A program made the translations under genes and the position numbers. Source: Nocardia sp. BSTN01 (GTDB taxonomy: Bacteria > Actinomycetota > Actinomycetes > Mycobacteriales > Mycobacteriaceae). Taken from it: DNA of 64,000 bases. Where the stretch lies: positions 1-64,000 of the forward strand of contig NZ_JADKYP010000013.1 in NCBI RefSeq assembly GCF_015354405.1, in the 5' to 3' direction. Below the pieces are notes generated by a model that was not told the origin of the DNA, ran no database searches, and was given only the letters and a program-made list of their open reading frames with translations. Each line of letters begins with the position of its first letter. Positions within the stretch are counted from its first letter, which is position 1. Shown piece by piece: positions 24,426 through 59,134 of the stretch.

Positions 24426-24455
24426 GAGCGTGTGCTCTCATGCGAGGATGACCCG

Positions 24456-35931: not shown

Positions 35932-36078
35932 GATCGGTGCCTCCTCGTTCGACACTTCCGCGCGACGACCGGCTCCGGACGGGCGTGACCACGGCGTCCG
36001 GGCACGTGGAATCGAAGCCCACCGGCGGCGCGGAGTCGCGAACCGCCCTCGGGGGCAACATCTTCAGGCTATCTGATG

Positions 36079-37646: not shown

Positions 37647-37674
37647 AACCCGCTGCGAGGAAAGGAAGTACGCG

Positions 37675-41668: not shown

Positions 41669-42628
41669 TCACTGCCATGTCGCATCGACTGCCTCCCCGC
41701 CGTCGAACGGCCCGGGCAGGCCCCGTGTGCCGAGATGGCGGGTCAGCCGATCGCGCGTCCCGGAACTCGCCCACGGCAGCCGGCGCAGCGGCAGGCTGTA
41801 GCGCGACAACCACGACAGCGGCGATTCGTCGCAGAAGCCGATGGCCCCGTGCAACTGGTGGGCGACCCGGAAGACGATTTCGGCGGCATCGAGCGCGGCG
41901 ACCCGCGCCGCGAGCGCGTCGCCGAGAGCATCTTCCCCGCCGCACCGGACGCTCCACAAGGCGTATTTCGCGAGGACATCCAGTCCGCTGCGTTCGACTT
42001 CGGCATCGGTGAGCTGAAATTGAACGCCCTGGAATTTCGCCAGCGGCTGTCCGAACTGGGTGCGCATCAGGACATGGGAGCGGGTGAGGTCCAGGGCGCG
42101 GTCCAGCATGCCCAGCAGCGTCCAGCAGTTGAGCGTCAGCGCGAGTGCCGCGTCCGTGCTCCCGGCCGCCCCGACCGAGGTCAGTGCCAGCGGCGTCACG
42201 AAGGCGGAGGTCCGCGGCGACGCACCGTCGGGCAGCGGCCGCGCCTGAAAGAGCTTGCCCTCCACGGTGACTGCCGCCCACCGCAAGTCCAGATCGGCGA
42301 CCGCACCCCGAGGGCGGGATTCGGTGACCACCACCAGACCGTCGGCCTCCGCGTCGAGCGGCCGCGAGAGCCGTTCGGCCAGCGGATACGGCAGCGCCCG
42401 GTAGCCGGCACTGCGGCACAAGGCCGCCGCCGCTTCCAGATCGTCGCCGTCGCGACGCGGATCCAGCTCCCACGCGCCGAGCCCGGCCAGGACGGGCGCG
42501 ACGATGTCGGCGCGACGGGACGGATCGGCCTCGGCGTCCTGGATCAGCCGGTCCCCGCCCGCGGCCGCGAAGGCCCGGCTCGCCTCGCGGCCGTAGTCGG
42601 TGGCCTCCCTGCTCAGGTCGATGTTCAC
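41669..42628 (-). CDS. Acyl-CoA dehydrogenase, short second subunit of a tandem pair
   Basis: A 319-residue dehydrogenase-like protein, shorter than normal (about 380). GTG 42628 overlaps the preceding dehydrogenase stop (GTGA). The C-terminal domain is clear (MRTQFGQPLAKFQGVQFQL; VAHQLHGAIGFCDESPLSWL), while the N-terminal part is diverged and lacks a recognisable FAD motif. This fits the degenerate subunit of an alpha2beta2 acyl-CoA dehydrogenase, as in the FadE26/27- and FadE28/29-type steroid enzymes (family knowledge; assignment inferred). Confidence 0.85.
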   Translation of the reverse strand: MNIDLSREATDYGREASRAFAAAGGDRLIQDAEADPSRRADIVAPVLAGLGAWELDPRRDGDDLEAAAALCRSAGYRALPYPLAERLSRPLDAEADGLVVVTESRPRGAVADLDLRWAAVTVEGKLFQARPLPDGASPRTSAFVTPLALTSVGAAGSTDAALALTLNCWTLLGMLDRALDLTRSHVLMRTQFGQPLAKFQGVQFQLTDAEVERSGLDVLAKYALWSVRCGGEDALGDALAARVAALDAAEIVFRVAHQLHGAIGFCDESPLSWLSRYSLPLRRLPWASSGTRDRLTRHLGTRGLPGPFDGGEAVDATWQ

Positions 42629-43779
42629 GACGCCCCCAGCAAGGCCCGCGACAACAGCAGTCGCTGCATTTCGATACTTCCCGAAGCGATGGTCGCGGCC
42701 TGCGAGTACCGCCAATGGTCGGCGACCGCGCGGCGAAACCAGCTCTCCCGCTGCGTATCCGGTGCGGTGTCGAGCTGGTCTGCCAGTTCGGCGAGTACTT
42801 CGGCACTGTCCTGATCGAGCCGGGTCACGGCGATCCGATAGGCAGCGGCATCCGCGGGCGCCACCCGGTCCCCGTTCTGCATCGCGATCACCCGATAGGC
42901 CAGCAACCGTGCCCGGCGGCAATGCACCAGCATGCGCGCCCAGCGCCCGCGCAATTCGGCCGGCACCTCCGCCCAGCGATCGCCCAGGACCTGCGGCGCC
43001 GCACGCAGCAGTCGTTCACATCGGGCGTAGCGAGCGATGCCGACGCGTTCGAAGGCCAGCACCTCCTGCACGACCGCCCAGCCTTCGCCGACCGTGCCGA
43101 GCACATCGTCCTCGGTCACCCGCAACTCGTCGAAGAACACCTCGTTCAGATGGTGCGGGCCCATCATGGCCCGGATCGGCCGCACCTGGACCCCCGGCGA
43201 GGACATCGGCACCAGGAAGATGGTCAGCCCGTGGTGTTTGCGGGCGCCGGTGGCCGTGCGCGCCAGCAGGAAACACCACTGCGCCATGGTGGCGTAGGAG
43301 GTCCAGATCTTCTGCCCGCTGATCAGCCAGCCGTCGCCGTCGCGGCGGGCCGTGGTGCGCAGCGACGCCAGATCCGAGCCCGCCTCGGGTTCGCTGAATC
43401 CCTGGCACCAGATCACCTCACCGCGCGCGATCGGCGGCAGATGGGTGCGTTGCTGCCGCGGGGTGCCGTGCCGCATGAGCGCCGGGCCGACCCAGTTGAC
43501 CCCCATGTACTGGGCGCCGCGCGGCTCGTGGTGGGCCCACATCTCCTCGCGGACCACCGTCTGCTCCCACACCGATCCGCCGCGCCCGCCGAACTCGCGG
43601 GGCCAGGCCGCGCACAGCAGTCCGCGCTCGGCCAGGACCCCGCAGAACTGCTGCGCTACGGCGAGATCGGCCGGATCGTCGGTGAAGGCGCCCAGGAAAT
43701 CGGCGGGGACATGCTGGGACACCAAGCGCCGCAAGTCATCTCGCAGCGCGTCGGCGGCCTCCCCCATCGTGAAGTCCAT
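42625..43779 (-). CDS. Acyl-CoA dehydrogenase, first subunit of a tandem pair
   Basis: A 384-residue dehydrogenase with VIWCQGFSEPEAGSDLASLRT (written here in family form IWCQGFSEPxAGSD), ISGQKIWTSYATMAQWCF and a C-terminus WRYSQAATIASGSIEMQRLL. I start at ATG 43779 since the longer TTG frame would run into the motif at 43796; GTG 43782 is equally possible. It is the first gene of the five-gene minus-strand block and is divergent from the GntR regulator, which probably controls it. Confidence 0.9.
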   Translation of the reverse strand: MDFTMGEAADALRDDLRRLVSQHVPADFLGAFTDDPADLAVAQQFCGVLAERGLLCAAWPREFGGRGGSVWEQTVVREEMWAHHEPRGAQYMGVNWVGPALMRHGTPRQQRTHLPPIARGEVIWCQGFSEPEAGSDLASLRTTARRDGDGWLISGQKIWTSYATMAQWCFLLARTATGARKHHGLTIFLVPMSSPGVQVRPIRAMMGPHHLNEVFFDELRVTEDDVLGTVGEGWAVVQEVLAFERVGIARYARCERLLRAAPQVLGDRWAEVPAELRGRWARMLVHCRRARLLAYRVIAMQNGDRVAPADAAAYRIAVTRLDQDSAEVLAELADQLDTAPDTQRESWFRRAVADHWRYSQAATIASGSIEMQRLLLSRALLGAS

Positions 43780-43795
43780 CACCCGACGGTACGTC

Positions 43796-43825
43796 AATCC
43801 TCACAAGGATAGCAATATTTGAATG
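43796..43825. promoter_or_regulatory. AATCCT...CAAGGATA motif, copy 2 (GntR/dehydrogenase promoter)
   Basis: AATCCTCACAAGGATAGCAA begins at 43796, then TATTTGAATG to 43825. ATCCT/AGGAT form an inverted pair around CACA. With the preceding TACGTC it matches the copy at 46675 at about 30 of 36 positions. It lies between the GntR gene and the divergent dehydrogenase operon. Confidence 0.7.
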
Positions 43826-43873
43826 GTCAGCACGGCCTGGTTAGAATCCGTGCATGGACCAAAGGCAGCCCGC

Positions 43874-44680
43874 GTGACCACCGCGCGTCGCGGGCGGATT
43901 CCGCAGCGCCGCATCGCCGAAACGGTCGCCTCCGAGCTGCGTACCCGCATCCTCTCCGGCGACGACGACTATCGCCTGCCCACTCAGGACCAGCTGGTGA
44001 AGGAATTCGGCGTCAGCTATCCCTCGATCCGGGAATCGCTGCGCATCCTCGAGACCGAGGGACTGGTCACCGTGCGGCGCGGCAATGTCGGCGGCGCGGA
44101 GGTCCACCGGCCCGACGAAACCTCCGCCGCCTACCACCTGGGTCTGGCACTCCAGGGGGCGCGAGTCACCCTCGGCGATCTGGCGGCCGCGCTGCAGATG
44201 CTCGAACCGCTGTGCGCCGCCGAATGCGCGCGCCGTCCCGACCGCGCCGAGGTCGTGGTCCCTGCACTCGAGGCCAATATCCACGCCTGCGAGGAAGTGG
44301 TCGGCGACGGTGTGGCCTTCACCCGCACCGCGCGCGAATTCCACGACCTGGTGGTCGCTTTCACCCCGAACGCGACGGTGCGCTGCGTGGTGTCCAGCCT
44401 GGTCACCCTGTGGTCGGCACAGGAGCAGGCGTGGGCCGAGACACTCACCCGGCGCGGGGAATACCCGTCGAAACCACAGGCCCACGACGCGGCCCGGGTG
44501 CACGCCCGGCTGGTCACCGCGATCGCCGACGGCGACGACGCCGAGGCCGAACGCCTGGCCCGCGCCCACCTGCGCGCGACCCAGTCCGTCGTGCTCGAAC
44601 GCTACGACTCCGGTGTGGTCAACGCTTCCTCGGATCTGGCACGTCAGGCCATCGCCGCGGGTCCGCGCGCGAGACTGTAG
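43874..44680 (+). CDS. GntR-family regulator, FadR-like (FCD) subfamily
   Basis: A 268-residue regulator. The N-terminal winged helix reads LPTQDQLVKEFGVSYPSIRE then LRILETEGLVTVRRG (about residues 35-75). The C-terminal FCD domain (about 95-250) shows the usual metal/ligand residues in LGDLAAALQMLE, REFHDLVV and HDAARVHARL. GTG 43874 follows AAAGG; other starts upstream are weaker. FCD regulators usually sense acyl-CoA or small acids. The shared motif upstream and at two other operons is its probable target. Confidence 0.9.
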   Translation: MTTARRGRIPQRRIAETVASELRTRILSGDDDYRLPTQDQLVKEFGVSYPSIRESLRILETEGLVTVRRGNVGGAEVHRPDETSAAYHLGLALQGARVTLGDLAAALQMLEPLCAAECARRPDRAEVVVPALEANIHACEEVVGDGVAFTRTAREFHDLVVAFTPNATVRCVVSSLVTLWSAQEQAWAETLTRRGEYPSKPQAHDAARVHARLVTAIADGDDAEAERLARAHLRATQSVVLERYDSGVVNASSDLARQAIAAGPRARL

Positions 44681-45612: not shown

Positions 45613-45780
45613 ACGAGGCCGAACCTCGCCATCGCATCCGCGTATTCCCCGCCTCGGCGGATGTCTCGCGGGGGGTGACGCGCACCGGCCCGAATTGCCC
45701 CTGCGCGCAGCGTGAATGCGAAACAATCGTGCATATCCGACGCGGCTCGGTTGGGCCGCGACCGCCGAGAGGAGCGTGAC

Positions 45781-46832: not shown

Positions 46833-48428
46833 GTGACTACACCGGCGCGCTACCTCACCTCGACTGCGGCGAGCGTCGCCGACGGGTGGACCCTCGACCG
46901 CATCACCGCACCGAGCAGGTTGTTCGGCGCCAACGGCATTCGCACCGGCGCCGACGGCCGGATCTATGTCGCACAGGTGGCGGGCAGCCAGATCAGCGCC
47001 CTGGACCCGGATTCCGGCGATCTGGAGACGATCAGCGCGATGGGCAGCGATATCGTCGCGCCCGACGACATCGCCTTCGCACCCGACGGCGAGCTCTACA
47101 TCACCGAGTACTACGACGGCCGCGTCAGCATTCGCGACGGCAAGGGCGAAACCCGGGTGCTACGTGACGATCTCCCCGGCGCCAACGGCATCACATTTCA
47201 TCAGGGCCGGCTGTTCGTCGACGAGTGCCGCCCGGGCGGGCGGCTGATGGAATTGGATCCGGCCGGCGGCGCGCCGCGGATCCTGCTGGACGGCCTGCCG
47301 ATGCCGAACGCCCTCGAGGTCGGGCCCGACGGCAAGCTCTATTATCCGCTGCTGGGCAGCAACGAGATCTGGCGCATCGACCCCGACGGTGGTGAACCCG
47401 AGCGGGTCGCGGCCGATCTGGGCGGACCGGATGCGGTCAAATTCGATGCCGCCGGCCGCATCGTCTCCACCCAGGTCGCGACCGGCGAGGTGGTGCGCAT
47501 CGATCCGCGCAGCGGCGAGCGAACCGTGCTCGCCACCGTCGGCCCCGGCCTGGACAACCTGACCTTCGTCGGCGAGCGGCTGTTCGTCTCCAGTTTCACC
47601 GGCAAGATCACCGAAATCCTCGCCGGCGGGGCCACCCGCACCGCCCTCGCCGACGGACTGACCTGGCCTCTCGATCTGACCGTCGGTCCCGACGGCACCC
47701 TCTACATCGCGGACGGCACCTTCCTGCTCGCCATCCCACCGGGCGGCGAATTGTCCACCGCCGGAATGCTTTTCAGCCCCGGTTATCCCGGCTACATCCG
47801 CGGCCTCACCGCGACGGGCGACGGGGACCTCATCGTCACCGGCAACGGGTCGGTCTCGCGCTATCGCCCGGCCGCCAGCCAGAGTGAGGTGCTCGTCGAG
47901 GGGCTGGACCAGCTCTACGGTGTGGCGGTCGCCCCCGACGGCACCGTCGCGGTCGCCGACCGGGGCACCGGCACGGTGCACGCCGTGCGCGACGGGCGCA
48001 CCGAACCGCTGGCGAGCGGACTGCGCGATCCGATGGGCGTGGCGTTCACCGCGGGCGGCACCTGCCTGGTCGCCGAAGCGGGCGCGGGCCGGGTGGTCGC
48101 GATCGACGGCTCGAAGGCCGATACCGTGGCCGACGGGCTCGGATGTCCGCACGGGCTGGTGGTCCACGACGACCTGGTGTACATCGTCGATGTCGAGGCC
48201 AAAGAACTGATCGGCCTGGATCCGAAAACCGAAGCGCGCCAGGCGATCGCGCGGAATCTGCCGGTGGGCGCGCCGCCGGGGGTGACACCCAAACCGTTGC
48301 GGGGCCTGCTGCCGTTCTCCGGGCCGCAGGGACCGTTCAGCGGCATCGCCGCCGGTCCCGACGGCACACTCTACCTTTCCGGCGACGCCGAGGGCAGCGT
48401 CCTCGCGATCCGGCGCGACGGCCGGTGA
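46833..48428 (+). CDS. Long SMP-30/gluconolactonase-like beta-propeller protein
   Basis: A 531-residue propeller. Repeats of the form (A/G)PDG-x-LY/IYIA are seen about every 40 residues (GADGRIYVAQ, APDGELYITE, GPDGKLYYPL, GPDGTLYIAD, APDGTVAVAD, GPDGTLYLSG). Acidic and Asn metal-site candidates are ANGI, PNALEVG and NLTF. Known SMP-30/gluconolactonases have one six-bladed propeller (about 300 residues); this length suggests two, or a larger ring. GTG 46833 follows GGAGG. As it starts the operon with a Baeyer-Villiger enzyme, lactone hydrolysis is a reasonable guess. Confidence 0.82.
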   Translation: MTTPARYLTSTAASVADGWTLDRITAPSRLFGANGIRTGADGRIYVAQVAGSQISALDPDSGDLETISAMGSDIVAPDDIAFAPDGELYITEYYDGRVSIRDGKGETRVLRDDLPGANGITFHQGRLFVDECRPGGRLMELDPAGGAPRILLDGLPMPNALEVGPDGKLYYPLLGSNEIWRIDPDGGEPERVAADLGGPDAVKFDAAGRIVSTQVATGEVVRIDPRSGERTVLATVGPGLDNLTFVGERLFVSSFTGKITEILAGGATRTALADGLTWPLDLTVGPDGTLYIADGTFLLAIPPGGELSTAGMLFSPGYPGYIRGLTATGDGDLIVTGNGSVSRYRPAASQSEVLVEGLDQLYGVAVAPDGTVAVADRGTGTVHAVRDGRTEPLASGLRDPMGVAFTAGGTCLVAEAGAGRVVAIDGSKADTVADGLGCPHGLVVHDDLVYIVDVEAKELIGLDPKTEARQAIARNLPVGAPPGVTPKPLRGLLPFSGPQGPFSGIAAGPDGTLYLSGDAEGSVLAIRRDGR

Positions 48429-49282
48429 GCGCGGTGACGGTCAACGACTTCTTCGGGCTCGACGGCCGCGTCGTCATCGTCTCCGGGGCGAGTGGCGGTG
48501 GCATCGGCACGGCGGTCACCCGGCGCATCGCCGAGGCGGGCGCCTCGGTGATCGCGGTGGGCCGCTCCCGCGACAAACTCGCCGCCGATATCGCACCCCT
48601 TGCGGCACAGGGACTTCCGATCGTTACGGTGGCCGCCGACGCCGCCACCGACGAGGGCATCGCGACGGTGCTCGACCACGCGCGCGCGGCCGACGGCGAG
48701 CTGTACGGCCTGGTCAATATCGCCGGCGGCGCGGCACCGGCGACGTGGATGCCGGCCACCCGGGTCACCCGCGCGGATTGGCGGGCACTACTGGAATGGA
48801 ATCTGGAGACGATGTTCTTCTTCAGCCAGGCGGTCGCCGCCGAACTGAAAGCACACCGCCTGCCGGGTTCGATCGTGTCGCTGTCGTCGATCAGCGGGAT
48901 GAACGCCGCCCCCTTCCACATCGCCTACGGCACCGCGAAGGCCGCACTCGTGGCGGCGACCCGGACCCTGGCCGCCGAACTGGCCCTCGACGGCATCCGG
49001 GTCAACGCGGTCGCCCCGGGCGTCACCGCGACCCCGGCCTCGGGCACCTACGTGGGCGCCGACCCCGAGCGCGATCGCCGCGCCATCGCCATGGGCCGGC
49101 GCGCCCGGCCGGAGGAACAGGCCGGGCCGATCCTGTTCCTGCTGTCGGACCTGTCGAGCTACGTCACCGGGCAGACCCTGCTGGTGGACGGCGGGCTGAA
49201 CCTGAAATGGACCCATCTGGGCGCGGACAACACCTCGCTGTTCCTCGAGGACGACGGGTTCCGCGCCGCCATCACACGCTGA
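48425..49282 (+). CDS. SDR oxidoreductase
   Basis: A 285-residue SDR with VIVSGASGGGIGTAV at the N-terminus (an extra Gly compared with the usual TGxxxGxG), NIAGG, and the YGTAK active site, ending GLNLKWTHLGADN plus a 15-residue tail. GTG 48425 overlaps the propeller gene stop. It lies just before the Rieske oxygenase and may oxidise the diol or alcohol made there. Confidence 0.88.
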   Translation: MSAVTVNDFFGLDGRVVIVSGASGGGIGTAVTRRIAEAGASVIAVGRSRDKLAADIAPLAAQGLPIVTVAADAATDEGIATVLDHARAADGELYGLVNIAGGAAPATWMPATRVTRADWRALLEWNLETMFFFSQAVAAELKAHRLPGSIVSLSSISGMNAAPFHIAYGTAKAALVAATRTLAAELALDGIRVNAVAPGVTATPASGTYVGADPERDRRAIAMGRRARPEEQAGPILFLLSDLSSYVTGQTLLVDGGLNLKWTHLGADNTSLFLEDDGFRAAITR

Positions 49283-49301: not shown

Positions 49302-50687
49302 ATGACCGAAACTGCCGACAGCATCACCGAAACGACTGCGGCGCAACCCTTGTCGACGCCGATGACGATCGGCGTCGACGCCTACGTCAGCGCCGAGTAC
49401 GCCCGCGCCGAGGGCGACAAGCTGTGGGCGAAGGTGTGGCAGCAGGTGTGCCGTGTCGAGGAGCTGCCCCGCGTCGGCGATTTCCTCACCTACGACATCC
49501 TCGACGACTCGATCATCGTCGTGCGCACGGCGCCGGATACCCTGCGCGCCTACCACAACGTGTGCGCGCATCGCGGCCGCCGGCTGGTCGACACCCCGCC
49601 CGGGGCCCACGACGCGCACGGGCAGCGCAAACAGTTCGTCTGCGGATTCCACGGCTGGCGCTACGACCTCGAGGGCCGCAACACGTTCGTACCCGAACGC
49701 GGCGACTGGACGTGCGGGCTGACCGAACGCAACGACGGTTTGCCGCCCGTGCGTATCGATACCTGGGGCGGCTGGGTGTGGATCAATCTCGATTCCTCCT
49801 GCGAACCGCTGCGCGATTATCTGGAACCGGCTGCCTCCCTGCTGGATCCGTTCCACCTGGAGAACATGCGGTACCGCTGGCGGCGCTGGCTGACCTTCGA
49901 CTGCAACTGGAAGGTCGCCTTCGAGGCGTTCATGGAGACCTATCACGTTCCCTACACCCATCCGGAATTCATGAATTTCGGAAATTTCCTCGGCTGGGGC
50001 CGCGCCCAGGGCAGGCACAGCAATATCGGCTACGACGCGCCGAAGGGGATGGAGGAGAACCAGGGGAAACTGCGGATCGGCGCCGGTCCCGACGCCCGGA
50101 TCTCGACCGCGCAACTGCAGAACTTCACCTGGGAGAACGCCAACACCAACACCACCGAGACGATGGTGGAGGTCGCGAATCGGCTCGCCGACGAACTTCC
50201 CGCCGACACTCCCCCTGATCAGGTGATGCGCTACTGGCTCGATACCTGCCGCAGGGAGGATGCTGAACGCGGCGTGGTGTGGCCGACCGTGGATCCGGAC
50301 ATCGTCGCGAAAAGCGGTACCGCCTGGCAGATCTTCCCCAATTTCCAGATCGGGCACGCGCTGAACAACATGCTGTGCTACCGATTCCGGCCCTACGGAT
50401 ACGACCCGGACAAGTGCATCTTCGAGGCCGCGGTCTTCGAATTGTTCCCGCCCGGTGCGGAACCGGAGACCGAATGGATCTACACCCCGGTCGGCGACCC
50501 GGGCTGGCGGACCGTGCTGCCGCAGGATTTCGACAATATGGCCGCCGTCCAGCAGGGCATGAAATCGCACGGCTTCTCCGGCCCGAAACCCAACCCGTAC
50601 CGCGAGCGCACGATCGTCAATCTGCACCACAACCTCGCGAAGTACATGGGCACCGGCGCGCCGACCGACCTGGAACGACCCGAATAG
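49302..50687 (+). CDS. Rieske non-haem iron oxygenase, large subunit
   Basis: A 461-residue ring-hydroxylating-type oxygenase. Rieske ligands are Cys88/His90 (CAHRG) and Cys114/His117 (CGFHGW); the spacer is 23 residues, longer than the usual 17 or so. The mononuclear iron site is His215 and His220 in ETYHVPYTHPE, preceded by NWK. ATG 49302 follows CAGGAG. No small subunit, ferredoxin or reductase is next to it, so it resembles the alpha-only (KshA-, carnitine-, or choline-type) oxygenases. It likely hydroxylates or demethylates an alicyclic or terpenoid substrate. Confidence 0.92.
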   Translation: MTETADSITETTAAQPLSTPMTIGVDAYVSAEYARAEGDKLWAKVWQQVCRVEELPRVGDFLTYDILDDSIIVVRTAPDTLRAYHNVCAHRGRRLVDTPPGAHDAHGQRKQFVCGFHGWRYDLEGRNTFVPERGDWTCGLTERNDGLPPVRIDTWGGWVWINLDSSCEPLRDYLEPAASLLDPFHLENMRYRWRRWLTFDCNWKVAFEAFMETYHVPYTHPEFMNFGNFLGWGRAQGRHSNIGYDAPKGMEENQGKLRIGAGPDARISTAQLQNFTWENANTNTTETMVEVANRLADELPADTPPDQVMRYWLDTCRREDAERGVVWPTVDPDIVAKSGTAWQIFPNFQIGHALNNMLCYRFRPYGYDPDKCIFEAAVFELFPPGAEPETEWIYTPVGDPGWRTVLPQDFDNMAAVQQGMKSHGFSGPKPNPYRERTIVNLHHNLAKYMGTGAPTDLERPE

Positions 50688-50714: not shown

Positions 50715-52541
50715 ATGAAACCCTGCGCCCCTACTCGGACCCCCGAGGTCGACAGAGAGGCCCTGCGGCAGAAATATCTGGCCGAACGCGACAAGCGGCT
50801 ACGTCCGGAGGGACAGCAGCAGTACCTCGAGGCGGCCGGCGAATTCGCGGACTTCTACGAGGCCGACCCGCACCTGCCGGTCGTCCCGCGCGCGCCGATC
50901 GACGCCGATATCGAGGTCGTCATCCTCGGCGGAGGTTTCGCCGGGCTGATCACCGCCCACCGGCTGCAGCAGGCCGGCGTCACCGACTTCCGGATCGTGG
51001 AACTCGGCGGCGATTTCGGCGGTGTCTGGTACTGGAACCGGTATCCGGGCATCCAGGTCGACTCCGACGCCTACTGCTATCTGCCGTTGCTCGAGGAAAC
51101 CGGATTCGTTCCGAAGGAGAAATTCTCCCACGGCGACGAATGCTACGAGCAGGCCCAGCGCATCGGTAAACATTTCGGACTCTACGACAAGGCGATCTTC
51201 CACACGCTGGTGCGCGCACTGGAATGGGACGAGCAGATCGCGCGCTGGCGAATCGCCACCAACCGCGGCGACGAGATCCGCGCCCACTTCCTGATCATGT
51301 GCCAGGGCCCCTACAACCGGCCGAAACTGCCCGGCATTCCCGGGATCACCGACTTCGAGGGCCATACCTTCCACACCGCGCGCTGGGATTACGACTACAC
51401 CGGCGGTGACCTGCACGGCGGCCTGGATCGTCTCGGCGACAAGAAGATCGCGGTCATCGGCACCGGCGCCAGCGGGGTGCAGGTGATTCCGCATCTGGCG
51501 CGCGGTGCGAAGCATGTGACGGTTTTCCAGCGCACGCCGTCCTATATCTTCGAGCGCGACAATCACCCGACCGATCCGGAATGGGTGGCCTCGCTGCAAC
51601 CGGGGTGGCGCACCGAACGTCAGCGCAATTTCCACAACGCCGCCTTCGCCTTCTACTCCCCCGGCGAACCGGATCTGATCTGCGACGGCTGGACCGAGGT
51701 CGCCCGCAATCTGGCCGCGACATTGAACGAGACCGACGGCTGGGCCGCGCTGGCCGATCCGGCGACCTTCCTCGAGCTCAAGGAAATCGAGGACTACCGC
51801 GCCATGGAGCGATTGCGGCGACGCGTGGAACAGATCGTCGAGGATCCCGAGACCGCGGAGAAGTTGAAGCCGTATTACCGCAACATGTGTAAGCGGCCGG
51901 TGTTCAACGACGACTACCTGCCGACGTTCAACCGGCCCGATGTGACGCTGGTCGACGTCTCCGACACCAAGGGCGTCGAGCGGATCACGCGCAAGGGCAT
52001 CGTCGCGCACGGCGTCGAATACGAGGTCGACTGCATCGTCTTCGCCAGCGGTTTCGAGATCACCACCGCGCTGGATCGCCAGTTCGACATCGCACCCTTC
52101 GCGGGACGCGGCGGGAAATCGCTGTACGAGCACTGGGGCAAGGGTTTTCGCACGCTGCACGGGATCATGGCGCACGGATTCCCGAACCATTTCGCGACCG
52201 GATTCATCCAGGGCGGGGTCACGGCGGCCACCACCCTGATGTACGAGCAGCAGGCCGACCATATCGCCTACATCATCGCGCAGGCGCAGTCGCGTGGCGC
52301 GACCCGCGTGGAGCCGACGGCGGCGGCCGAAGAGGCATGGGTGCAGACGATCCGGGCCAACACCGTCGACAACAGCACCTTCGTCACGGAATGCACCCCC
52401 GGCTACTACAACAGCGAGGGTGAACCGAACGGCCGCTCGTTCCTCGGCGACCCGTTCTGGGGTGGCTTCTACGTGCTCGAGGACCTGCTGCGGGCCTGGC
52501 GCGACGCCGGCGATCTGGACGGCCTGACGCTGAGCAGTTAG
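50715..52541 (+). CDS. Type I Baeyer-Villiger monooxygenase
   Basis: A 608-residue flavin monooxygenase. FAD motif GGGFAGL at 72-78, the Baeyer-Villiger fingerprint FxGxxxHxxxW(D) at 214-225 exactly (F214, G216, H220, W224, D225) and the NADPH motif GTGASG at 249-254. The segment GGDFGGVWYWNRYPG is typical of the cyclohexanone/phenylacetone/steroid group. It inserts oxygen beside a ketone to give an ester or lactone. ATG 50715 follows CCAAGGA. SDRs on either side of the Rieske and monooxygenase genes could supply the ketone. Confidence 0.95.
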   Translation: MKPCAPTRTPEVDREALRQKYLAERDKRLRPEGQQQYLEAAGEFADFYEADPHLPVVPRAPIDADIEVVILGGGFAGLITAHRLQQAGVTDFRIVELGGDFGGVWYWNRYPGIQVDSDAYCYLPLLEETGFVPKEKFSHGDECYEQAQRIGKHFGLYDKAIFHTLVRALEWDEQIARWRIATNRGDEIRAHFLIMCQGPYNRPKLPGIPGITDFEGHTFHTARWDYDYTGGDLHGGLDRLGDKKIAVIGTGASGVQVIPHLARGAKHVTVFQRTPSYIFERDNHPTDPEWVASLQPGWRTERQRNFHNAAFAFYSPGEPDLICDGWTEVARNLAATLNETDGWAALADPATFLELKEIEDYRAMERLRRRVEQIVEDPETAEKLKPYYRNMCKRPVFNDDYLPTFNRPDVTLVDVSDTKGVERITRKGIVAHGVEYEVDCIVFASGFEITTALDRQFDIAPFAGRGGKSLYEHWGKGFRTLHGIMAHGFPNHFATGFIQGGVTAATTLMYEQQADHIAYIIAQAQSRGATRVEPTAAAEEAWVQTIRANTVDNSTFVTECTPGYYNSEGEPNGRSFLGDPFWGGFYVLEDLLRAWRDAGDLDGLTLSS

Positions 52542-52567: not shown

Positions 52568-53491
52568 ATGCCGTTGTCCGAACTGAGATTCGACGATCGC
52601 GTCGCGGTGGTCACCGGCGCCGGGCGCGGTCTGGGCCGGGCCTATGCCCTGCTGCTGGCCGAACGCGGCGCGCGCGTGGTGGTCGACGATCCCGGCGGCA
52701 GTATGCGCGGTGAGGACCCCGACGCCGGAGTCGCCGCCGAGGTGGTCGCCGAGATCGCCGCCGCGGGCGGCACGGCGGTGGCGTGCACCGCGTCGGTCGC
52801 CACCCCGGAGGGCGGGCGGGCGATCGTGGACACGGCGCTCGACCGGTTCGGACGCCTCGACATCCTGATTCACAATGCCGGCACCGTGCGCTACGGATCG
52901 CTGACCGAACTGAGTTACGAGGATTTCGAGGCCGTGCTGGATGTGCATCTGCGCGGCGCCTTCCACACCGTGCGCGCGGCCTTCCCGGTCATGAACGAGG
53001 CCGGCTACGGCCGGGTGGTGCTGACCTCCTCGATCGGCGGCCTCTACGGCAATCGGTCGGTCGCCAATTACGCGGTGTCGAAGGCGGGCATGATCGGGCT
53101 GTCGAATGTGGTCGCCCTCGAGGGCGCCGAGGCGGGAGTGCGCTGCAACATCATCGTGCCCTCGGCGGTGACCCGGATGGCCGACGGTATCGACACCTCC
53201 GCCTATCCGGATATGCGCCCGGAACTGGTGGCCCCGGCGGTCGCGTATCTGGCGCACGAATCCTGTTCTCTCACCGGCGAATTGCTGGTCGCGATCGCGG
53301 GCCGGGTGGCGCGCGCCTATATCGCCGAGACGCCGGGTGTGTATCAGCCGTCCTGGACCGTCGACGAGGTCGCCGCGCGCATCGACGACATCCGCAACAC
53401 CGACAACTCGTGGATCCTGCCGCCGCTGAGCGCGCACGCCGATCACATCGGCCGCAGCTTCGCGATGGCGACCGAAGGGAAACAGCAGTGA
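52568..53491 (+). CDS. SDR of the multifunctional-enzyme type (17beta-HSD4-like)
   Basis: A 307-residue SDR: TGAGRGLGRAY, the early DDPGG loop with a long GEDPDAG insert, HNAG, and YAVSK. The layout with the C-terminal extension after LAHESCSLTGELL (about 70 residues, ending MATEGKQQ) matches the dehydrogenase domain of peroxisomal multifunctional enzyme 2 and bacterial hydroxyacyl-CoA dehydrogenases of steroid pathways. It overlaps the ThDP gene by GTGA. A (3R)-hydroxyacyl-CoA or 2-hydroxyacid dehydrogenase role is possible. Confidence 0.9.
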   Translation: MPLSELRFDDRVAVVTGAGRGLGRAYALLLAERGARVVVDDPGGSMRGEDPDAGVAAEVVAEIAAAGGTAVACTASVATPEGGRAIVDTALDRFGRLDILIHNAGTVRYGSLTELSYEDFEAVLDVHLRGAFHTVRAAFPVMNEAGYGRVVLTSSIGGLYGNRSVANYAVSKAGMIGLSNVVALEGAEAGVRCNIIVPSAVTRMADGIDTSAYPDMRPELVAPAVAYLAHESCSLTGELLVAIAGRVARAYIAETPGVYQPSWTVDEVAARIDDIRNTDNSWILPPLSAHADHIGRSFAMATEGKQQ

Positions 53492-55188
53492 AGGTTTACG
53501 AACGGATTCTCGAACTCTTCGAGGCCGAGGGTATCGACACCATCTTCGGCATTCCGGACCCCAACTTCGTCCACCTGTTCCACCGCGCCGAGGAGCGCGG
53601 CTGGAAGGTAGTGGCGCCGCATCACGAGGAATCGGCCGGAATGATGGCCGAGGGCGTCTCGCGGATGACCGGGAAGGCCGCGGTGTGCATCGGCACCCTG
53701 GGCCCCGGTATCGCGAATCTGTCCGGCGCCATCATGTGCGCGAAGGTGGAGAATTCGCCGATCATCTTCCTGGGCGGGCAGCGGGCCCGGATCACCGAGC
53801 AGCGGGTGCGGCGCGGCCGGATCCAGTTCGTGCAGCAGGCCGGTCTGGTCGAGAATTCCGTGAAGTACAGCGCCAGTATCGAATACGCGGATCAGACCGA
53901 CGAGATCATCCGTGAGGGCCTGCGCAAGGCGCTGTCGGGCACACCGGGACCGGTGTACATCGAATATCCCTCGCACGTCATCGAGGCGGAACTCGATCTG
54001 CCGCCGGCACTGCCACCGCAGCGGTATCGCCTCGTCGGCCAGACCGCGGGCGCCGATCGCATCGCCGAGGCGGCCGAGCACATCCGGGCCGCGCGGCAGC
54101 CGATCCTGCTGATCGGGCACGGCGTCCACACCGCGCGGGCGGCGGAATCGGTACGGCAACTGGCCGATCTCATGGCCGCCCCGGTGATCCAGACCTCCGG
54201 TGGCACCTCCTATATTCCCGGCCTCGAGGATCGCACCTTTCCCTACGGCTTCTCCCCCTCGGCGGTGGAGGCGGTCGTGCAGTCGGACCTGTGCCTGGCC
54301 ATCGGCACCGAACTCGGCGAACCCGTGCACTACGGCCGCGGCCGGCACTGGCTCGCGGGCGAGGCGGAGCGGAAATGGATTCTGGTGGAACAGGATCCGG
54401 CCGCCATCGGGGTGAACCGTCCCATCGACGTGCCGCTGGTCGGCGATCTGCGGGCGGTGGTCCCACAGCTGGCCGAGGCGCTGCGTGACACTCCACGCAC
54501 GCCGTCACCGGAGCTGGCGGGCTGGATCGAGCGGGATGCCGCCCGGCTGGCCGAACTGGCCGAATCGGCGCCCAGCGGGAGGAGCCCGGTCCATCCGGCA
54601 CGCCTGATCGTGGAGGCGACGAAGGCCTTTCCCGCCGACGGCATCATGGCCCGGGACGGCGGCGCCACCACGATCTTCGGCTGGACGTACTCGCAGGCGA
54701 AACCGCACGACGTGATGTGGAACCAGAACTTCGGACATCTGGGCACCGGGCTGCCCTACGCCATCGGCGCCTCGGTGGCCGACGGCGGCACCCGGCCGGT
54801 CATGCTGATCACCGGCGATTCCTCGTTCCAGTTCCAGATCGCCGAACTCGAAACGGCCGCCCGCCTGAATCTGCCGCTGGTCTGCGTGGTCGGCGTCGAC
54901 TACGCGTGGGGTCTCGAGGTCGGCGTGTACAAACGCACCTTCGGGCAGGGCTCGCTCGAAACGGGTGTGCACTGGAGTACCGGTGTCCGTCTGGACAAGG
55001 TGGCCGAGGGTTTCGGGTGTCACGGCGAATACGTCGAACGCGACGAGGACATCGCACCGGCGATCAAACGTGCCTATGCCAGCGGTAAGCCGGGGGTCGT
55101 GCACGTCGCCGTCGATCCGAAGGCCAATTCGGAGGAGATGCCCAGTTACGACGAATTCCGCACCTGGTACGCGGAAGGAATGCAGTAG
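53488..55188 (+). CDS. Thiamine-diphosphate enzyme (2-hydroxyacyl-CoA lyase / 2-oxoacid decarboxylase-like)
   Basis: A 566-residue ThDP enzyme with the three standard domains: N-terminal Pyr domain with the activating Glu47 in HHEESA, central domain and C-terminal PP domain. The magnesium motif is GDS (443-445) and, 24 residues on, Val-Asp (470-471) where the family has Asn-Asn. GDSSFQFQIAELETAARLNL resembles the GDSxFxFxxxExETxxRxNLP pattern of 2-hydroxyacyl-CoA lyase and oxalyl-CoA decarboxylase, yet GTLGPGIANLSGA fits decarboxylases and acetolactate synthases generally. GTG 53488 overlaps the SDR. With aldehyde dehydrogenase, dioxygenase and SDR following, one-carbon shortening (alpha-oxidation) is the attractive reading. 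Confidence 0.85.
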   Translation: MKVYERILELFEAEGIDTIFGIPDPNFVHLFHRAEERGWKVVAPHHEESAGMMAEGVSRMTGKAAVCIGTLGPGIANLSGAIMCAKVENSPIIFLGGQRARITEQRVRRGRIQFVQQAGLVENSVKYSASIEYADQTDEIIREGLRKALSGTPGPVYIEYPSHVIEAELDLPPALPPQRYRLVGQTAGADRIAEAAEHIRAARQPILLIGHGVHTARAAESVRQLADLMAAPVIQTSGGTSYIPGLEDRTFPYGFSPSAVEAVVQSDLCLAIGTELGEPVHYGRGRHWLAGEAERKWILVEQDPAAIGVNRPIDVPLVGDLRAVVPQLAEALRDTPRTPSPELAGWIERDAARLAELAESAPSGRSPVHPARLIVEATKAFPADGIMARDGGATTIFGWTYSQAKPHDVMWNQNFGHLGTGLPYAIGASVADGGTRPVMLITGDSSFQFQIAELETAARLNLPLVCVVGVDYAWGLEVGVYKRTFGQGSLETGVHWSTGVRLDKVAEGFGCHGEYVERDEDIAPAIKRAYASGKPGVVHVAVDPKANSEEMPSYDEFRTWYAEGMQ

Positions 55189-55245
55189 CCGTGTACACGA
55201 CAACCTCTGCCCCACAGCGCATCCGGAGAGAAGGACTGGCGGCTC

Positions 55246-56679
55246 ATGCGTGAATATCCGACGTTCTACATCGGCGGGCAATGGGTCGAACCCGCGTCCG
55301 CGCAGACCATCGAGGTGATCAACCCGGCGACCGAGCAGATCTGCGGCAGGGTCGCCGCCGGATCGGCCGAGGATGTGGATCGGGCCGTCGCCGCGGCGCG
55401 GACCGCGTTCGGGACCTGGTCGGCGACCACCGTCGCCGATCGGCTCGCGGTGTTGCGGGCCGTCGCGGCCGAATATCAGCGCCGCCGTGCGGATCTGGCG
55501 GCGGCGCTCACCGAGGAGATGGGCGCACCGGCCGCGCTCGCGGGCGGTTTCCAGGTCGATCTGGGCGCCGGGCATCTCGACACCGCGATCGCCGCACTCG
55601 CCGACTACCGCTTCGAGCATCGGCAGGGCGCCTCGCTGGTGGTCAAGGAACCGATCGGCGTGTGCGGACTGATCACACCGTGGAACTGGCCGCTGAATCA
55701 GATTGCGGTCAAGGTCTTTCCGGCTCTGGCCACCGGATGCACCGTGATCCTGAAGCCGTCGGAGCAGTCGCCGTTCAACGCGCAGATCTTCGCCGAGATC
55801 CTCGACGCGGCCGGTGTGCCCGCCGGAGTGTTCAACCTGGTTCAGGGCGACGGACCGGGCGTGGGGGTGCCGCTGTCGGGCCATCCCGATATCGACATGA
55901 TCTCGTTCACCGGTTCCACCCGGGCCGGTATCGATATCGCCCGCAACGCCGCGCCCACGGTCAAGCGGGTCACCCAGGAGCTCGGCGGCAAGAGCCCGAA
56001 CATCGTGCTCGACGACACCGATTTCGCCGCCAACGTCGCCAAGGGCGTGGTGACGATGATGAACAATTCCGGGCAGACGTGCAGCGCCGGATCTCGCATG
56101 CTGGTACCCGCCGCGCGCATGGACGAGGCGAAGGAGGCCGCCCGCGAGGCCGCGGGCACCGTGACCGTCGGCGATCCGACCGGTGAGGTCGCGATGGGCC
56201 CGGTGGTGTCGGGCGCGCAGTTCGACAAGATCCAGGCGCTGATCCGGAAGGGCATCGAGGAGGGCGCCACCCTGGTCACCGGCGGCACGGGCCGACCGGA
56301 TGGCCTGGACGTCGGATTCTACGTCCAGCCAACGGTTTTCGCCGACGTCACCAACGATATGACGATCGCGCGCGAGGAGATCTTCGGGCCGGTGCTGACC
56401 ATCCTCGGTTACGACTCCCTGGATCACGCGATCGAGATCGCCAACGACACCGATTACGGGCTGGCCGGCTTCGTGGCGGGTGCCGACCTGGAGCAGGCCC
56501 GCGCGGTGGCCCGCCGCATCCGCGCGGGCTCGGTGGCGATCAACGACGGCTTCGACTTCGCCTGCCCGTTCGGCGGCTACCGCAAGAGCGGCAACGGACG
56601 CGAATGGGGCGCATACGGATTCGAGGAGTACCTCGAGACCAAGGCGATTCTCGGATACGCACCGGAGGAGGGGGCGTGA
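55246..56679 (+). CDS. Aldehyde dehydrogenase (second copy)
   Basis: A 477-residue aldehyde dehydrogenase: Asn147 in PWNWP, Glu245 in QELGGKS, nucleophile Cys279 in SGQTCSAG, cofactor motif FTGSTRAG (221-228). ATG 55246 follows GGAGAGAAGGA. It lies 57 bases after the ThDP enzyme, whose aldehyde product it could oxidise, and overlaps the dioxygenase by GTGA. It is not a recent copy of the one at 5153-6631 (different active-site surroundings). Confidence 0.93.
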   Translation: MREYPTFYIGGQWVEPASAQTIEVINPATEQICGRVAAGSAEDVDRAVAAARTAFGTWSATTVADRLAVLRAVAAEYQRRRADLAAALTEEMGAPAALAGGFQVDLGAGHLDTAIAALADYRFEHRQGASLVVKEPIGVCGLITPWNWPLNQIAVKVFPALATGCTVILKPSEQSPFNAQIFAEILDAAGVPAGVFNLVQGDGPGVGVPLSGHPDIDMISFTGSTRAGIDIARNAAPTVKRVTQELGGKSPNIVLDDTDFAANVAKGVVTMMNNSGQTCSAGSRMLVPAARMDEAKEAAREAAGTVTVGDPTGEVAMGPVVSGAQFDKIQALIRKGIEEGATLVTGGTGRPDGLDVGFYVQPTVFADVTNDMTIAREEIFGPVLTILGYDSLDHAIEIANDTDYGLAGFVAGADLEQARAVARRIRAGSVAINDGFDFACPFGGYRKSGNGREWGAYGFEEYLETKAILGYAPEEGA

Positions 56680-57494
56680 AAACCACGAAACTCAGCGACA
56701 CGGTCGGCGTGCGGGTCGAGGATGTCGACCTCGATCGTCTCCGCAGCGACGACGACCTGCCGCACGAATGTCTGAACGCGCTCGAAGAACACGGTGTGCT
56801 GCTGTTCCCGCGCTTGCACGCCGATGACGAGACGCAGGCCGCGTTCTGCCGCAAACTCGGTGAGCTGGTGCAGTTTCCGCTGTACCCGAATCCGGACGTG
56901 ATGGAGATCAGTTTCGACCCGGACAACCCCAATGTGGAGTATTTCGCCAGCAACGACTACTGGCATCTGGACGGTTTCATGGACGAGGTGCCGGCCAAGG
57001 CGTCCATCATGAGCGCCCACGTGGTAACCGAGACGGGTGGTGAAACCGCGTTCGCCAGCACCTACGTCGCCTACGACGAACTGTCCGAGGAGGAGAAGCG
57101 GCGGTTCGAGGGCCTGCGGGTGTGGCACAGTTTCGAGGCCATTCAACGGCTGACATATGCCGATCCGACGCCGGATCAGCTCGACGAGTGGGCACGCCGT
57201 GGCGGACGGGAACATCCGCTGGTGTGGACGCACGAATCCGGCCGCCGCTCACTGGTTTTCGGGGCCTCGGCCGATCACGTGGTGGGCATGGACCCGGACG
57301 AGGGCCGGGCGCTGCTCGACGATCTGCTGGCGCGGGCGACCGCCCCGGACCGGGTGCTGTCCCATCGGTGGACGGTGGGCGACATGGTGATCTGGGACAA
57401 CACCGGCCTGGTGCATCGAGCCTGTCCGTTCGATCGGTCGCACCCGCGGCGCATGCACCGGTCCACCCTGGTCGGGCAGGAGTCGATCAAATGA
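56676..57494 (+). CDS. TauD/TfdA-family 2-oxoglutarate/Fe(II) dioxygenase (second copy)
   Basis: A 272-residue dioxygenase with iron ligands His97 and Asp99 (WHLD) and His247 (GLVHRAC), and Arg262 for 2-oxoglutarate. GTG 56676 overlaps the aldehyde dehydrogenase stop. It is clearly paralogous to the gene at 6835 (shared VPAKA, FASTYxAYxxLSE, HSFEAxQRL, GRRSLVxGAxADHxVGMD), with differences concentrated in the loop after residue 60, near the substrate. It is coupled by ATGA to an SDR, as is the first copy. Confidence 0.93.
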   Translation: MKTTKLSDTVGVRVEDVDLDRLRSDDDLPHECLNALEEHGVLLFPRLHADDETQAAFCRKLGELVQFPLYPNPDVMEISFDPDNPNVEYFASNDYWHLDGFMDEVPAKASIMSAHVVTETGGETAFASTYVAYDELSEEEKRRFEGLRVWHSFEAIQRLTYADPTPDQLDEWARRGGREHPLVWTHESGRRSLVFGASADHVVGMDPDEGRALLDDLLARATAPDRVLSHRWTVGDMVIWDNTGLVHRACPFDRSHPRRMHRSTLVGQESIK

Positions 57495-58234
57495 GCGGCC
57501 GCACAGCGATCGTGACGGGCGGCGCGTCCGGGATCGGTGGCGCGATCGCGCGGCGTCTGGCCGCCGACGGCTCGCCGGTGGCGGTGTTCGACCTGGACGG
57601 CGCGGCGGCCGATCGCGCGGCGCGGGAGATCGGCGAATCCGGCGGTAAGGCGATCGGGGTGGCGGTGGACGTGTCCGACCGCGGCGCCATCGATACCGGC
57701 GTGCGGCAAGTGCGCGACGAGCTGGGCCGGCCGTCGATTCTGGTCAACAGTGCCGGAATCACCACGTCCGGTCCGTTTCTCGACATCACCGCGCAGCAGT
57801 GGGCGCGGGTGCTGGCGGTCAACCTCACCGGCACGTTCGACTGCTGCCAGGCCGTGCTGCCCGATATGGTCGAGCAGGGCTGGGGGCGGATCGTGAACAT
57901 CTCCTCGTCGAGTATTCACAGCGGCGCGGCGGGGATGGCCGCCTATGTGTCCTCGAAGTCCGGGGTGCTGGGGTTGACGAAGGTGCTCGCGCTGGAGTTC
58001 GCGCGAAAAGGTGTCACCGTCAACACGATTCCGCCGGGGTTCATCGATACGCCCATGATGCGAGCGACCGCCGACCGTGGCTTCATCGATGTGGACAAGC
58101 AGATCGACGCTACTCCCGTCGGGCGGATCGGGTTGCCGGAGGATATCGCGGCCGCCTGCGCATTCCTGGTGAGCGAGGAGGCCGGCTATATCACCGGGCA
58201 GGTGATCGGCGTGAACGGCGGCCGCAACACCTGA
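57491..58234 (+). CDS. SDR dehydrogenase, partner of the second dioxygenase
   Basis: A 247-residue SDR with TGGASGIGG, NSAG, SSSSIHSG and the YVSSK active site. ATG 57491 overlaps the dioxygenase stop. It is the paralogue of the SDR at 7632; the tails PEDIAAACAFLVSEEAGYIT are identical and both end VNGGRNT. It is the last gene of the operon, before a strong hairpin. Likely role: oxidation of the new hydroxyl to a ketone. Confidence 0.92.
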   Translation: MSGRTAIVTGGASGIGGAIARRLAADGSPVAVFDLDGAAADRAAREIGESGGKAIGVAVDVSDRGAIDTGVRQVRDELGRPSILVNSAGITTSGPFLDITAQQWARVLAVNLTGTFDCCQAVLPDMVEQGWGRIVNISSSSIHSGAAGMAAYVSSKSGVLGLTKVLALEFARKGVTVNTIPPGFIDTPMMRATADRGFIDVDKQIDATPVGRIGLPEDIAAACAFLVSEEAGYITGQVIGVNGGRNT

Positions 58235-58322: not shown

Positions 58323-58904
58323 TTACCGATGCCGCGGCAGATAGGGCTGCAGATCGTCGTCGGGTTCCACGCCGAAGGATCGCAGAGCCATGGCCAGCAT
58401 ATCGTAGGTGCCGACGGTGAAAACGATATCCATGAGTTGATTCTGCTCGAATTCGGCGGCGAGGACCTCCCAGGTTCGGGCGCCGACCGCACCGTCGGAC
58501 AGTAATTCGTCGGTGGCGATCAGCAACGCTCTGTCGGCAACCACCCATTCGTCGTCCGGCACCGCCGCCGCGACTCGTTCGATTTCCGCCTTCGACATTC
58601 CGGCTATTTCGGCGAGAATGGCGTGCTGGGCCCATTCATAATCACACTGCCGGACGGCGGCGACACGCAGTATCAGCAGTTCGCGCTGCCGATCGCCGAG
58701 TGTGGATCCGTACAGCAGATGGCCGTTGAAGCTCAGGAATGCCTTGGCCAGCGCGGGATATCGGGCGAGCGTGCCGAGCAGGTTGGCACCGGCGGGGTGC
58801 GTGTCGGCCGGGGTGTCACCGAGCACGGAGGAGCGGAATTCCCCGATGAGTCCGATCAGATCCGGCGACCACTCCGACTTTTCCGCAGGCGTTATTCGAG
58901 CCAC
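58323..58904 (-). CDS. Carboxymuconolactone-decarboxylase/AhpD-family protein
   Basis: A 193-residue all-helical protein. RQRELLILRVAAVRQCDYEW followed by AQHAILA is the CMD/AhpD signature; the second Cys of the AhpD CxxC is absent, so it is closer to the CMD-like branch than to peroxidases. GTG 58904 is chosen for the AAGGAG site. It may be a decarboxylase, an isomerase or a redox helper; no partner gene is seen. Confidence 0.85.
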   Translation of the reverse strand: MARITPAEKSEWSPDLIGLIGEFRSSVLGDTPADTHPAGANLLGTLARYPALAKAFLSFNGHLLYGSTLGDRQRELLILRVAAVRQCDYEWAQHAILAEIAGMSKAEIERVAAAVPDDEWVVADRALLIATDELLSDGAVGARTWEVLAAEFEQNQLMDIVFTVGTYDMLAMALRSFGVEPDDDLQPYLPRHR

Positions 58905-59134
58905 GACCGACTCCTTCCGGCCGATGCGCAGACCCACCCGGCCATGAATTTCCGGGCCGCATCCCGCCGCCCCGAATCCGCATTTCCGGCGAATACCGGC
59001 TTCGGAAATGCTATCAAAACGGCCATTGTTTCGCGATGGTGTTCCGCGCGATGTCCCGCCGCCACGGTCTACACTTCGGTACCGAATTCCGCCGCCCGGC
59101 GCGGCGGCCGTCCCGATCGCAGCTTGGAGCGAAT

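Follow-up and report, generated by a model that had tools for sequence, protein, structure and literature searches.

A ThDP enzyme gene in a nine-gene run

The window analyzed here is the whole stretch of 64,000 nucleotides at positions 1 to 64,000 of contig NZ_JADKYP010000013.1 from Nocardia sp. BSTN01 (assembly GCF_015354405.1; genome size, 7.79 Mb). Our subject is a gene for a thiamine diphosphate (ThDP)-dependent enzyme within this window, together with the gene cluster around it. An initial annotation had singled out four adjacent genes as a self-contained α-oxidation cassette: those for the ThDP enzyme, an aldehyde dehydrogenase (ALDH), a TauD/TfdA dioxygenase (TauD), and a short-chain dehydrogenase/reductase (SDR3). 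We find that they do not form a natural unit but close, at its 3′ end, a run of nine co-directional genes that starts at 46833.

All nine genes lie on the forward strand. The run opens with an NHL/SMP-30-like β-propeller of 531 amino acids, a putative lactone or ester hydrolase (NHL, 46833..48428; Pfam SGL at 1.2e-17, NHL, and Vgb_lyase), whose counterpart in Rhodococcus USK13 is annotated as SMP-30/gluconolactonase. It is followed by SDR1 (48425..49282; adh_short_C2 at 2.7e-53), for which the exact start codon is unsettled, and by the alpha subunit of a Rieske non-heme iron oxygenase (49302..50687; Rieske at 1.5e-15, Ring_hydroxyl_A at 2.2e-20), which has a CxH...CxxH motif at residue 88. A type I Baeyer–Villiger monooxygenase (BVMO) of the PtlE/PockeMO group (50715..52541) and SDR2 (52568..53491), the latter assigned by Pfam, complete the upstream part.

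The ThDP enzyme itself (53488..55188; 566 amino acids; TPP_enzyme_N/M/C) is a probable C–C lyase or decarboxylase, judging from its residues. Downstream lie an NAD(P)-dependent ALDH of 477 amino acids (55246..56679; Aldedh at 2e-157, with ELGGK and GQTC motifs), TauD, an Fe(II)/2-oxoglutarate dioxygenase of 272 amino acids (56676..57494; TauD at 1.6e-57), and the FabG-like SDR3 of 247 amino acids (57491..58234; adh_short). These last four genes are all present and intact where the initial annotation placed them, with their motifs and with the Pfam families that it named. Its description of them as coupled holds only in part. ALDH and TauD do overlap by GTGA at 56676, as do TauD and SDR3 by ATGA at 57491, but the ThDP stop and the ALDH start are 57 bp apart without overlap, and the GTGA at 53488 joins the ThDP gene to SDR2, a gene that had been omitted. 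Beyond SDR3, on the reverse strand, is an accessory gene for a carboxymuconolactone decarboxylase/AhpD-like protein (CMD, 58323..58937; CMD at 5.2e-13).

A seven-gene core recurs across lineages

A scan of the genome_contigs collection with ThDP peptide patterns returned 312 relatives, the best 80 of which were kept as loci (L018 to L097; 75 to 99% identical; 68 full length). These were read with 10 kb flanks, so that genes distant from the ThDP gene in the window mostly fall outside them. The loci come from Nocardia, Rhodococcus, Williamsia, Actinomadura, Frankia-type, Amycolatopsis, Streptacidiphilus, mycobacterial, and other actinobacterial records; one record is titled a Gammaproteobacteria MAG (L085), and the record of the two Williamsia faeni loci is flagged UNVERIFIED_CONTAM. 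The enzyme is found in 8 of 40 genomes, including that of the window, with the other seven at 82 to 99% identity and the next matches at about 30%. Across 396 genomes of the phylum, 27 matches at E ≤ 1e-80 comprise nine at 73 to 100% identity and 18 at 33 to 36%. Four plasmids also carry the gene: one each from Rhodococcus USK13 (80%) and Mycobacterium branderi (78%), and two from Sphingobium (70 to 71%).

The partners of the ThDP gene are highly constant among the 80 loci: BVMO in 80, SDR2 in 79, ALDH and Rieske in 77 each, SDR1 in 74, and NHL in 73. A seven-gene core (NHL, SDR1, Rieske, BVMO, SDR2, ThDP, and ALDH) thus recurs in Nocardia, Rhodococcus, Actinomadura, Frankia-type, and mycobacterial genomes and on the two Sphingobium plasmids. 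The order of the genes varies between lineages while the core set stays, which suggests that the core genes share a function. ALDH lies directly downstream of the ThDP gene in 76 of the 80 loci, indicating that this pairing is more than chance.

On the Sphingobium plasmids, the core is conserved at lower identity (SDR1, 71 to 72%; ThDP, 70 to 71%; SDR2, 63 to 66%; ALDH, 63 to 65%; BVMO and NHL, 53 to 55% each; Rieske, 49%). The 38 to 42 kb read there contain no TauD match, and no SDR3 match above 37%. In Sphingobium RAC03 (L156, 21.9 to 23.3 kb), the ALDH that follows the ThDP gene matches as two segments read in different frames and is absent from the plasmid gene table; in Sphingobium V4 it is one piece. 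The M. branderi plasmid has ThDP, ALDH, Rieske, BVMO, and SDR2 genes, a family III CoA-transferase gene (CaiB), and an SDR3 relative at 57%. A TauD-family gene about 1.3 kb upstream of its ThDP gene is nearest (42%) to a second TauD of the window described below.

TauD and SDR3 form an accessory module

Within the same 80 loci, TauD is present in 34, SDR3 in 33, and CMD in 32. Where TauD does occur, it usually has SDR3 as a neighbor (31 of 34 loci) and CMD within 1.5 kb (29 of 34), yet TauD directly follows ALDH in only 16 of the 80, so that a synteny search for the four-gene set of the initial annotation yields no conserved unit. Neither TauD nor SDR3 passes the thresholds in any of the 14 mycobacterial loci; a TauD relative in one of the loci, L088, is 43% identical. 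A second locus in the Williamsia faeni record flagged UNVERIFIED_CONTAM reads SDR1-ThDP-SDR3-CMD-Rieske-BVMO-SDR2, with no TauD seen (L082).

There is nonetheless evidence for some link between TauD and the ThDP enzyme. We surveyed 149 Nocardia genomes with thresholds that differ by gene (ThDP, E ≤ 1e-150; BVMO, E ≤ 1e-190; CaiB, E ≤ 1e-130; TauD relatives, E ≤ 1e-60). TauD relatives occur in 48 of the 55 genomes with the ThDP enzyme, leaving seven without, and in 6 of the 94 that lack the enzyme; since these genomes are related, Fisher values on such counts overstate independence. The ThDP enzyme is also present in each of the 29 genomes whose TauD reaches 61% identity or more. Furthermore, in a rearranged locus of Frankia AgB1.9 (L063; BVMO-ThDP-TauD-SDR3-CMD), TauD and SDR3 directly follow the ThDP gene.

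The dioxygenase has the HxD...H and Arg signature of its family: in 39 aligned sequences of at least 40% identity, H97 and D99 are present in 38 (one gap) and H247 and R262 in all 39. It scores 136.5 bits with the taurine dioxygenase model NF007104 (cut-off, 313). Of four taurine-binding residues of Escherichia coli TauD (H70, Y73, N95, and S158), two (Y73 and N95) are retained, Phe stands in place of H70, and Ile aligns with S158. The only Pfam domain found at E ≤ 0.001 is TauD (PF02668), with no PhyH. The cluster differs in two respects from the mammalian phytanic acid route invoked by the initial annotation: the dioxygenase matches TauD and not PhyH, and it is optional.

In the scheme of that annotation, TauD would hydroxylate beside a carboxylate, SDR3 would oxidize the product to a 2-oxo acid, the ThDP enzyme would decarboxylate it, and ALDH would yield the shortened acid. 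The gene families fit such a sequence, ALDH, TauD, and SDR3 overlap at the locus, and the Nocardia co-occurrence and the Frankia arrangement are in its favor. However, more than half of the loci lack TauD and SDR3, as do all 14 mycobacterial ones and the stretches read around the Sphingobium core; the ThDP enzyme has no His at the position typical of pyruvate decarboxylases (see below); and the constant partners Rieske, BVMO, SDR1, SDR2, NHL, and, in Nocardia genomes, CaiB are left unexplained. We consider self-contained α-oxidation quite improbable. The initial annotation was wrong about the functional unit and hence about the main chemistry. Its hand-off of an aldehyde from the ThDP enzyme to ALDH is probably right: the two genes are neighbors, and the active-site residues are those of carbanion-protonating enzymes and not of acetolactate synthase.

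The second TauD/TfdA dioxygenase of the window (6838-7641) is 49% identical to that of the locus. Neighboring genes encode ALDH, CaiB, thiolase, ChsH2-like OB-fold, and P450 proteins. None of nine extended Nocardia regions (described below) has a counterpart of this part of the window, except that one contains an ALDH relative (49%).

The ThDP enzyme belongs to a distinct clade

By raw score, the closest matches of the ThDP enzyme are acetolactate synthases: 269 bits against an NCBIfam cut-off of 509, 205 bits by sequence and 226 by profile in the PDB, and the first row in Foldseek. A bacterial 2-hydroxyacyl-CoA lyase (HACL)/synthase follows at 212 bits in the PDB profile search. The enzyme remains far below the cut-offs of the HACL model NF058623 (178 against 600 bits), the Xsc model TIGR03457 (sulfoacetaldehyde acetyltransferase, SAAT; 218.7 against 676.4), and the NCBIfam OXC model (198).

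Phylogenetically, the family forms its own clade on a 100/100 branch, with uncharacterized proteins at 33 to 35% identity as neighbors. A 100/99 split separates this side of the tree from that holding HACL/OXC (three references), ALS, GCL, and POX, in a single build of 27 rows with long-branch warnings from which Xsc, BFD, BAL, and CDH are absent. Clustering with acetolactate synthases, which would have spoken against the lyase assignment of the initial annotation, is not seen in this tree. The enzyme also lies outside HACL/OXC, and for Xsc the comparison is one of score alone.

The active site sets the family apart. All 84 sequences examined share E47, Q113, D444, D471, and E477 along with six arginines at 99-111. 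At residue 443, before the Mg-binding Asp, 66 have Gly and 18 have Ser (GDS versus SDS or SDA-type), and Asp471 stands in every one where Asn is usual. The column of E477 holds Ile in E. coli GCL and Val in ilvI. In the rows seen of Table 1 of a published comparison, the equivalent residues are I479 in GCL, V483 in AHAS, E473 in PDC, and E493 in AcHACL (PMC13327070). Among those rows, Glu is combined with Gln at the Q128 position only in AcHACL, a putative mycobacterial HACL, and SAAT, while PDC-type decarboxylases pair Glu with His (H114 of ZmPDC at the Q128 position) and HACL1 is described as being without the helix that bears E493 of AcHACL (PMC13327070).

In the present family, E477 and Q113 are the equivalents of E493 and Q128 of AcHACL in all 84 sequences, so both HACL residues are present; the Q113 column is not fully diagnostic, however, since two NCBIfam-HACL reference rows (L122 and L123) have Glu there instead of Gln. 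Q113 also occupies the place of the His expected of a pyruvate or indolepyruvate decarboxylase. Because E477 and Q113 match the AcHACL pair, the enzyme is predicted to be a lyase that protonates the carbanion and releases an aldehyde, consistent with the ALDH next door. These features suggest a new clade characterized by Asp as the second Mg ligand, an Arg-rich loop at 99-111, and the Glu/Gln pair.

Three other classes of chemistry were considered. The first is that the enzyme is a carboligase of the acetolactate synthase type in a biosynthetic cluster. The top raw scores would agree with this, as would a BVMO resembling PtlE, which is from pentalenolactone biosynthesis. Nevertheless, the Val of AHAS is replaced by Glu in 84 of 84 sequences, the clade is separate, ALDH is adjacent, and the wider cluster holds a ligase, acyl-CoA dehydrogenases, and crotonases, with no terpene or polyketide synthase among its annotated genes. 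We regard a carboligase as very unlikely.

A second, CoA-dependent possibility is that the enzyme is a 2-hydroxyacyl-CoA lyase yielding an aldehyde and formyl-CoA, with the family III CoA-transferase recycling CoA as Frc does with OXC, all within the larger cluster. The E477 and Q113 pair is that listed for AcHACL, the putative mycobacterial HACL, and SAAT in the rows seen (PMC13327070). CaiB occurs in 54 of the 55 Nocardia genomes with the ThDP enzyme and in 1 of the 94 without, the latter a 78%-complete genome, and the nine loci in which it directly precedes the ThDP gene all belong to the 14 from mycobacteria. Its NCBIfam matches include formyl-CoA transferase models (169 bits; cut-off, 442). 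On the other hand, the HACL score and the tree both place the ThDP enzyme outside HACL, and models of other CoA-transferases give CaiB a better score (197 bits), so that its role may be limited to activating the final acid. The CoA-dependent route is unlikely.

Of similar, limited likelihood is a third possibility, namely that the enzyme is a lyase or hydrolase of a cyclic 1,2-dione or acyloin, opening the ring to an aldehyde acid that ALDH would then oxidize. Cyclohexane-1,2-dione hydrolase and benzaldehyde lyase share with it the fold, Gln at the Q128 position, and an aldehyde product (predicted for the cluster enzyme); they differ in having Asn or Thr where E477 stands, and benzaldehyde lyases are only 22 to 23% identical in structural alignment.

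An extended cluster in Nocardia

In the Nocardia survey, the ThDP enzyme is present in 55 of the 149 genomes and the BVMO in exactly the same 55. We read 40 kb regions from nine genomes with the enzyme, picked for having the ThDP gene near CaiB on one contig. Sixteen window genes recur there at 45% identity or more, spanning about 24 kb (32678-56679). Fifteen are found in all nine regions and SDR1 in eight. The seven core genes are joined by nine others, for which the counts in the shorter flanks of the 80 loci are given in parentheses.

Four of these lie at the far end: an enoyl-CoA hydratase/crotonase (ECH1, 32678..33475, reverse; 9 loci), an acetyl-CoA hydrolase/transferase family protein (33476..34747, reverse; 14 loci), the family III CoA-transferase of CaiB/Frc type (CaiB, 34744..35955, reverse; CoA_transf_3 at 2.2e-111; 27 loci), and an AMP-forming acyl-CoA ligase (36111..37646, forward; 11 loci). 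They are followed by a further SDR (37555..38454, forward), whose start is probably downstream of the start of the open reading frame, two acyl-CoA dehydrogenases (ACAD1, 39643..40827, reverse, 3 loci; ACAD2, 42625..43797, reverse, 33 loci), a second crotonase (ECH2, 40831..41634, reverse; 2 loci), and a GntR/FCD regulator (43823..44680, forward; GntR at 1.4e-12, FCD at 2.2e-14; 47 loci). TauD occurs in seven of the nine regions, five of the locus type (70 to 88%) and two at 52 to 53%, with SDR3 in six and CMD in five. Of the window genes before 32.6 kb, only three recur at 45% or more (in two, one, and one of the nine regions).

Some further observations concern this part of the window. A DUF4389-like gene, so labeled by reading and not by Pfam, lies between GntR and NHL (45712-46482); it occurs in one of the nine regions (G541) and also in the close relatives L018, L020, L021, and L030. 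CaiB relatives with one in-frame stop each were seen in two Nocardia genomes (G549:C54 and G509:C105). Elsewhere in the window, an R2K-clade ATP-grasp protein (24432-25334; PF14243 at 3.8e-44) adjoins an acyl-CoA thioesterase.

A proposed catabolic pathway

We propose that a larger, conserved catabolic cluster, ending in the four genes, degrades an alicyclic or branched compound and that its ThDP enzyme acts as an aldehyde-yielding lyase; from the sequences, we would put the probability of this at about 50%. The constant partners are oxygenases that could functionalize and cleave a ketone-bearing skeleton. The BVMO carries the FxGxxxHxxxW[P/D] fingerprint, as FEGHTFHTARWD at residue 214, together with two GxGxxG Rossmann motifs. 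It scores 654 bits with the NCBIfam PtlE model (cut-off, 1100), and its best PDB match is 5mq6 (401 bits). We favor an alicyclic, perhaps terpenoid-like, ketone as the substrate because PtlE and PockeMO (5mq6), the nearest relatives of the BVMO, act on polycyclic ketones.

In such a pathway, the Rieske oxygenase and SDR1 would put a carbonyl onto the alicyclic or branched skeleton, the BVMO would insert oxygen beside it, and the NHL propeller would hydrolyze the resulting lactone or ester. SDR2 could then oxidize the alcohol, whether released in this step or newly formed. Next to that carbonyl, the ThDP enzyme would cleave a C–C bond; protonation of the ThDP-bound carbanion by E477 would let an aldehyde depart, which ALDH would convert to an acid. 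A ligase or CoA-transferase may turn the acid into a CoA ester for the acyl-CoA dehydrogenases and crotonases. TauD and SDR3, with or without CMD, would be an accessory hydroxylation and oxidation module in some strains and not the engine of the pathway.

Several points weigh against this proposal. The order of steps is inferred from gene families alone, no ferredoxin or reductase for the Rieske oxygenase is found among the annotated genes of the run, and SMP-30-like propellers are not always hydrolases. The best raw scores of the ThDP enzyme are with acetolactate synthases, and its AlphaFold model (mean pLDDT, 71.7; below 50 at residues 392-400, 402-404, and 477-495) is too weak around the active site to add to the evidence from residues. 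The core is also incomplete in places: the Frankia locus L063 has no Rieske, SDR2, or ALDH match, and the 37.7 kb stretch of the M. branderi plasmid has no NHL or SDR1 match. Regarding sampling, the 80 loci were the top-ranking ones among 312 relatives retrieved with ThDP peptide patterns, the nine extended regions were preselected for ThDP–CaiB proximity, and co-occurrence inside one genus partly reflects common descent. Among the 54 genomes with both genes, ThDP and CaiB are within 30 kb in 32, 49 to 81 kb apart in 8, and on different contigs in 14. Thus, the 24 kb block is not universal.

A combination of these ideas can also be envisaged, in which the aldehyde would arise when the new-clade enzyme cleaves a 2-hydroxyacyl-CoA or acyloin, the CoA-transferase would recycle formyl-CoA, and the optional TauD and SDR would feed the reaction by hydroxylating beside a carboxylate. 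This would amount to a bacterial CoA-recycling α-oxidation inside a BVMO pathway, which we consider an unlikely, speculative variant.

Literature searches, most of them aimed at the gene set, turned up no paper on the cluster, which is widely shared among bacteria and apparently unstudied. Its presence in many soil actinobacteria and on plasmids of Sphingobium, Rhodococcus, and mycobacteria indicates a common natural substrate, for the breakdown of which we found no description. A ThDP clade whose active site is unusual and whose association with the BVMO is strict should be useful for annotation, since its proteins score best as "acetolactate synthase", and the enzyme could possibly serve as a C–C lyase in biocatalysis. 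This case also suggests caution, in that reasoning from the order of families in four adjacent genes can cut across the real functional unit.

Comparison with known systems

The cluster shares components with several characterized systems. Like HACL (AcHACL), its ThDP enzyme has the POX-family fold, the cofactor Glu, Gln at the Q128 position, and Glu at the E493 position. It differs in scoring far under the NCBIfam cut-off, in its separate clade, in having Asp and not Asn as the second Mg ligand, and in the Arg-rich loop at 99-111. In some strains, the enzyme types of mammalian phytanic acid α-oxidation (PHYH, HACL1, and ALDH) have counterparts side by side, with a 2-oxoglutarate dioxygenase gene next to those for the ThDP enzyme and ALDH; however, the dioxygenase of the cluster is of the TauD/TfdA type and optional, and Rieske and BVMO are constant instead. 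The nine mycobacterial loci where a family III CoA-transferase adjoins a POX-family ThDP enzyme resemble the Frc-OXC pair of oxalate metabolism, although both proteins are below the respective cut-offs (OXC for the ThDP enzyme, Frc for the CaiB of the window) and ALDH follows.

The pentalenolactone cluster (PtlE and PtlD) likewise combines a BVMO of the same broad group with a TauD-type dioxygenase. The scores here are low (654 of 1100 bits for PtlE and 78 of 550 for PtlD), and the present set looks catabolic and includes a ThDP enzyme. Finally, lumichrome/riboflavin degradation (LumKL) also unites a ThDP enzyme and a Rieske oxygenase in one actinobacterial catabolic cluster, whereas LumK and LumL form a heterodimer and the part of the source consulted mentions Baeyer–Villiger chemistry only among the general reactions of flavoenzymes (PMC12752717).

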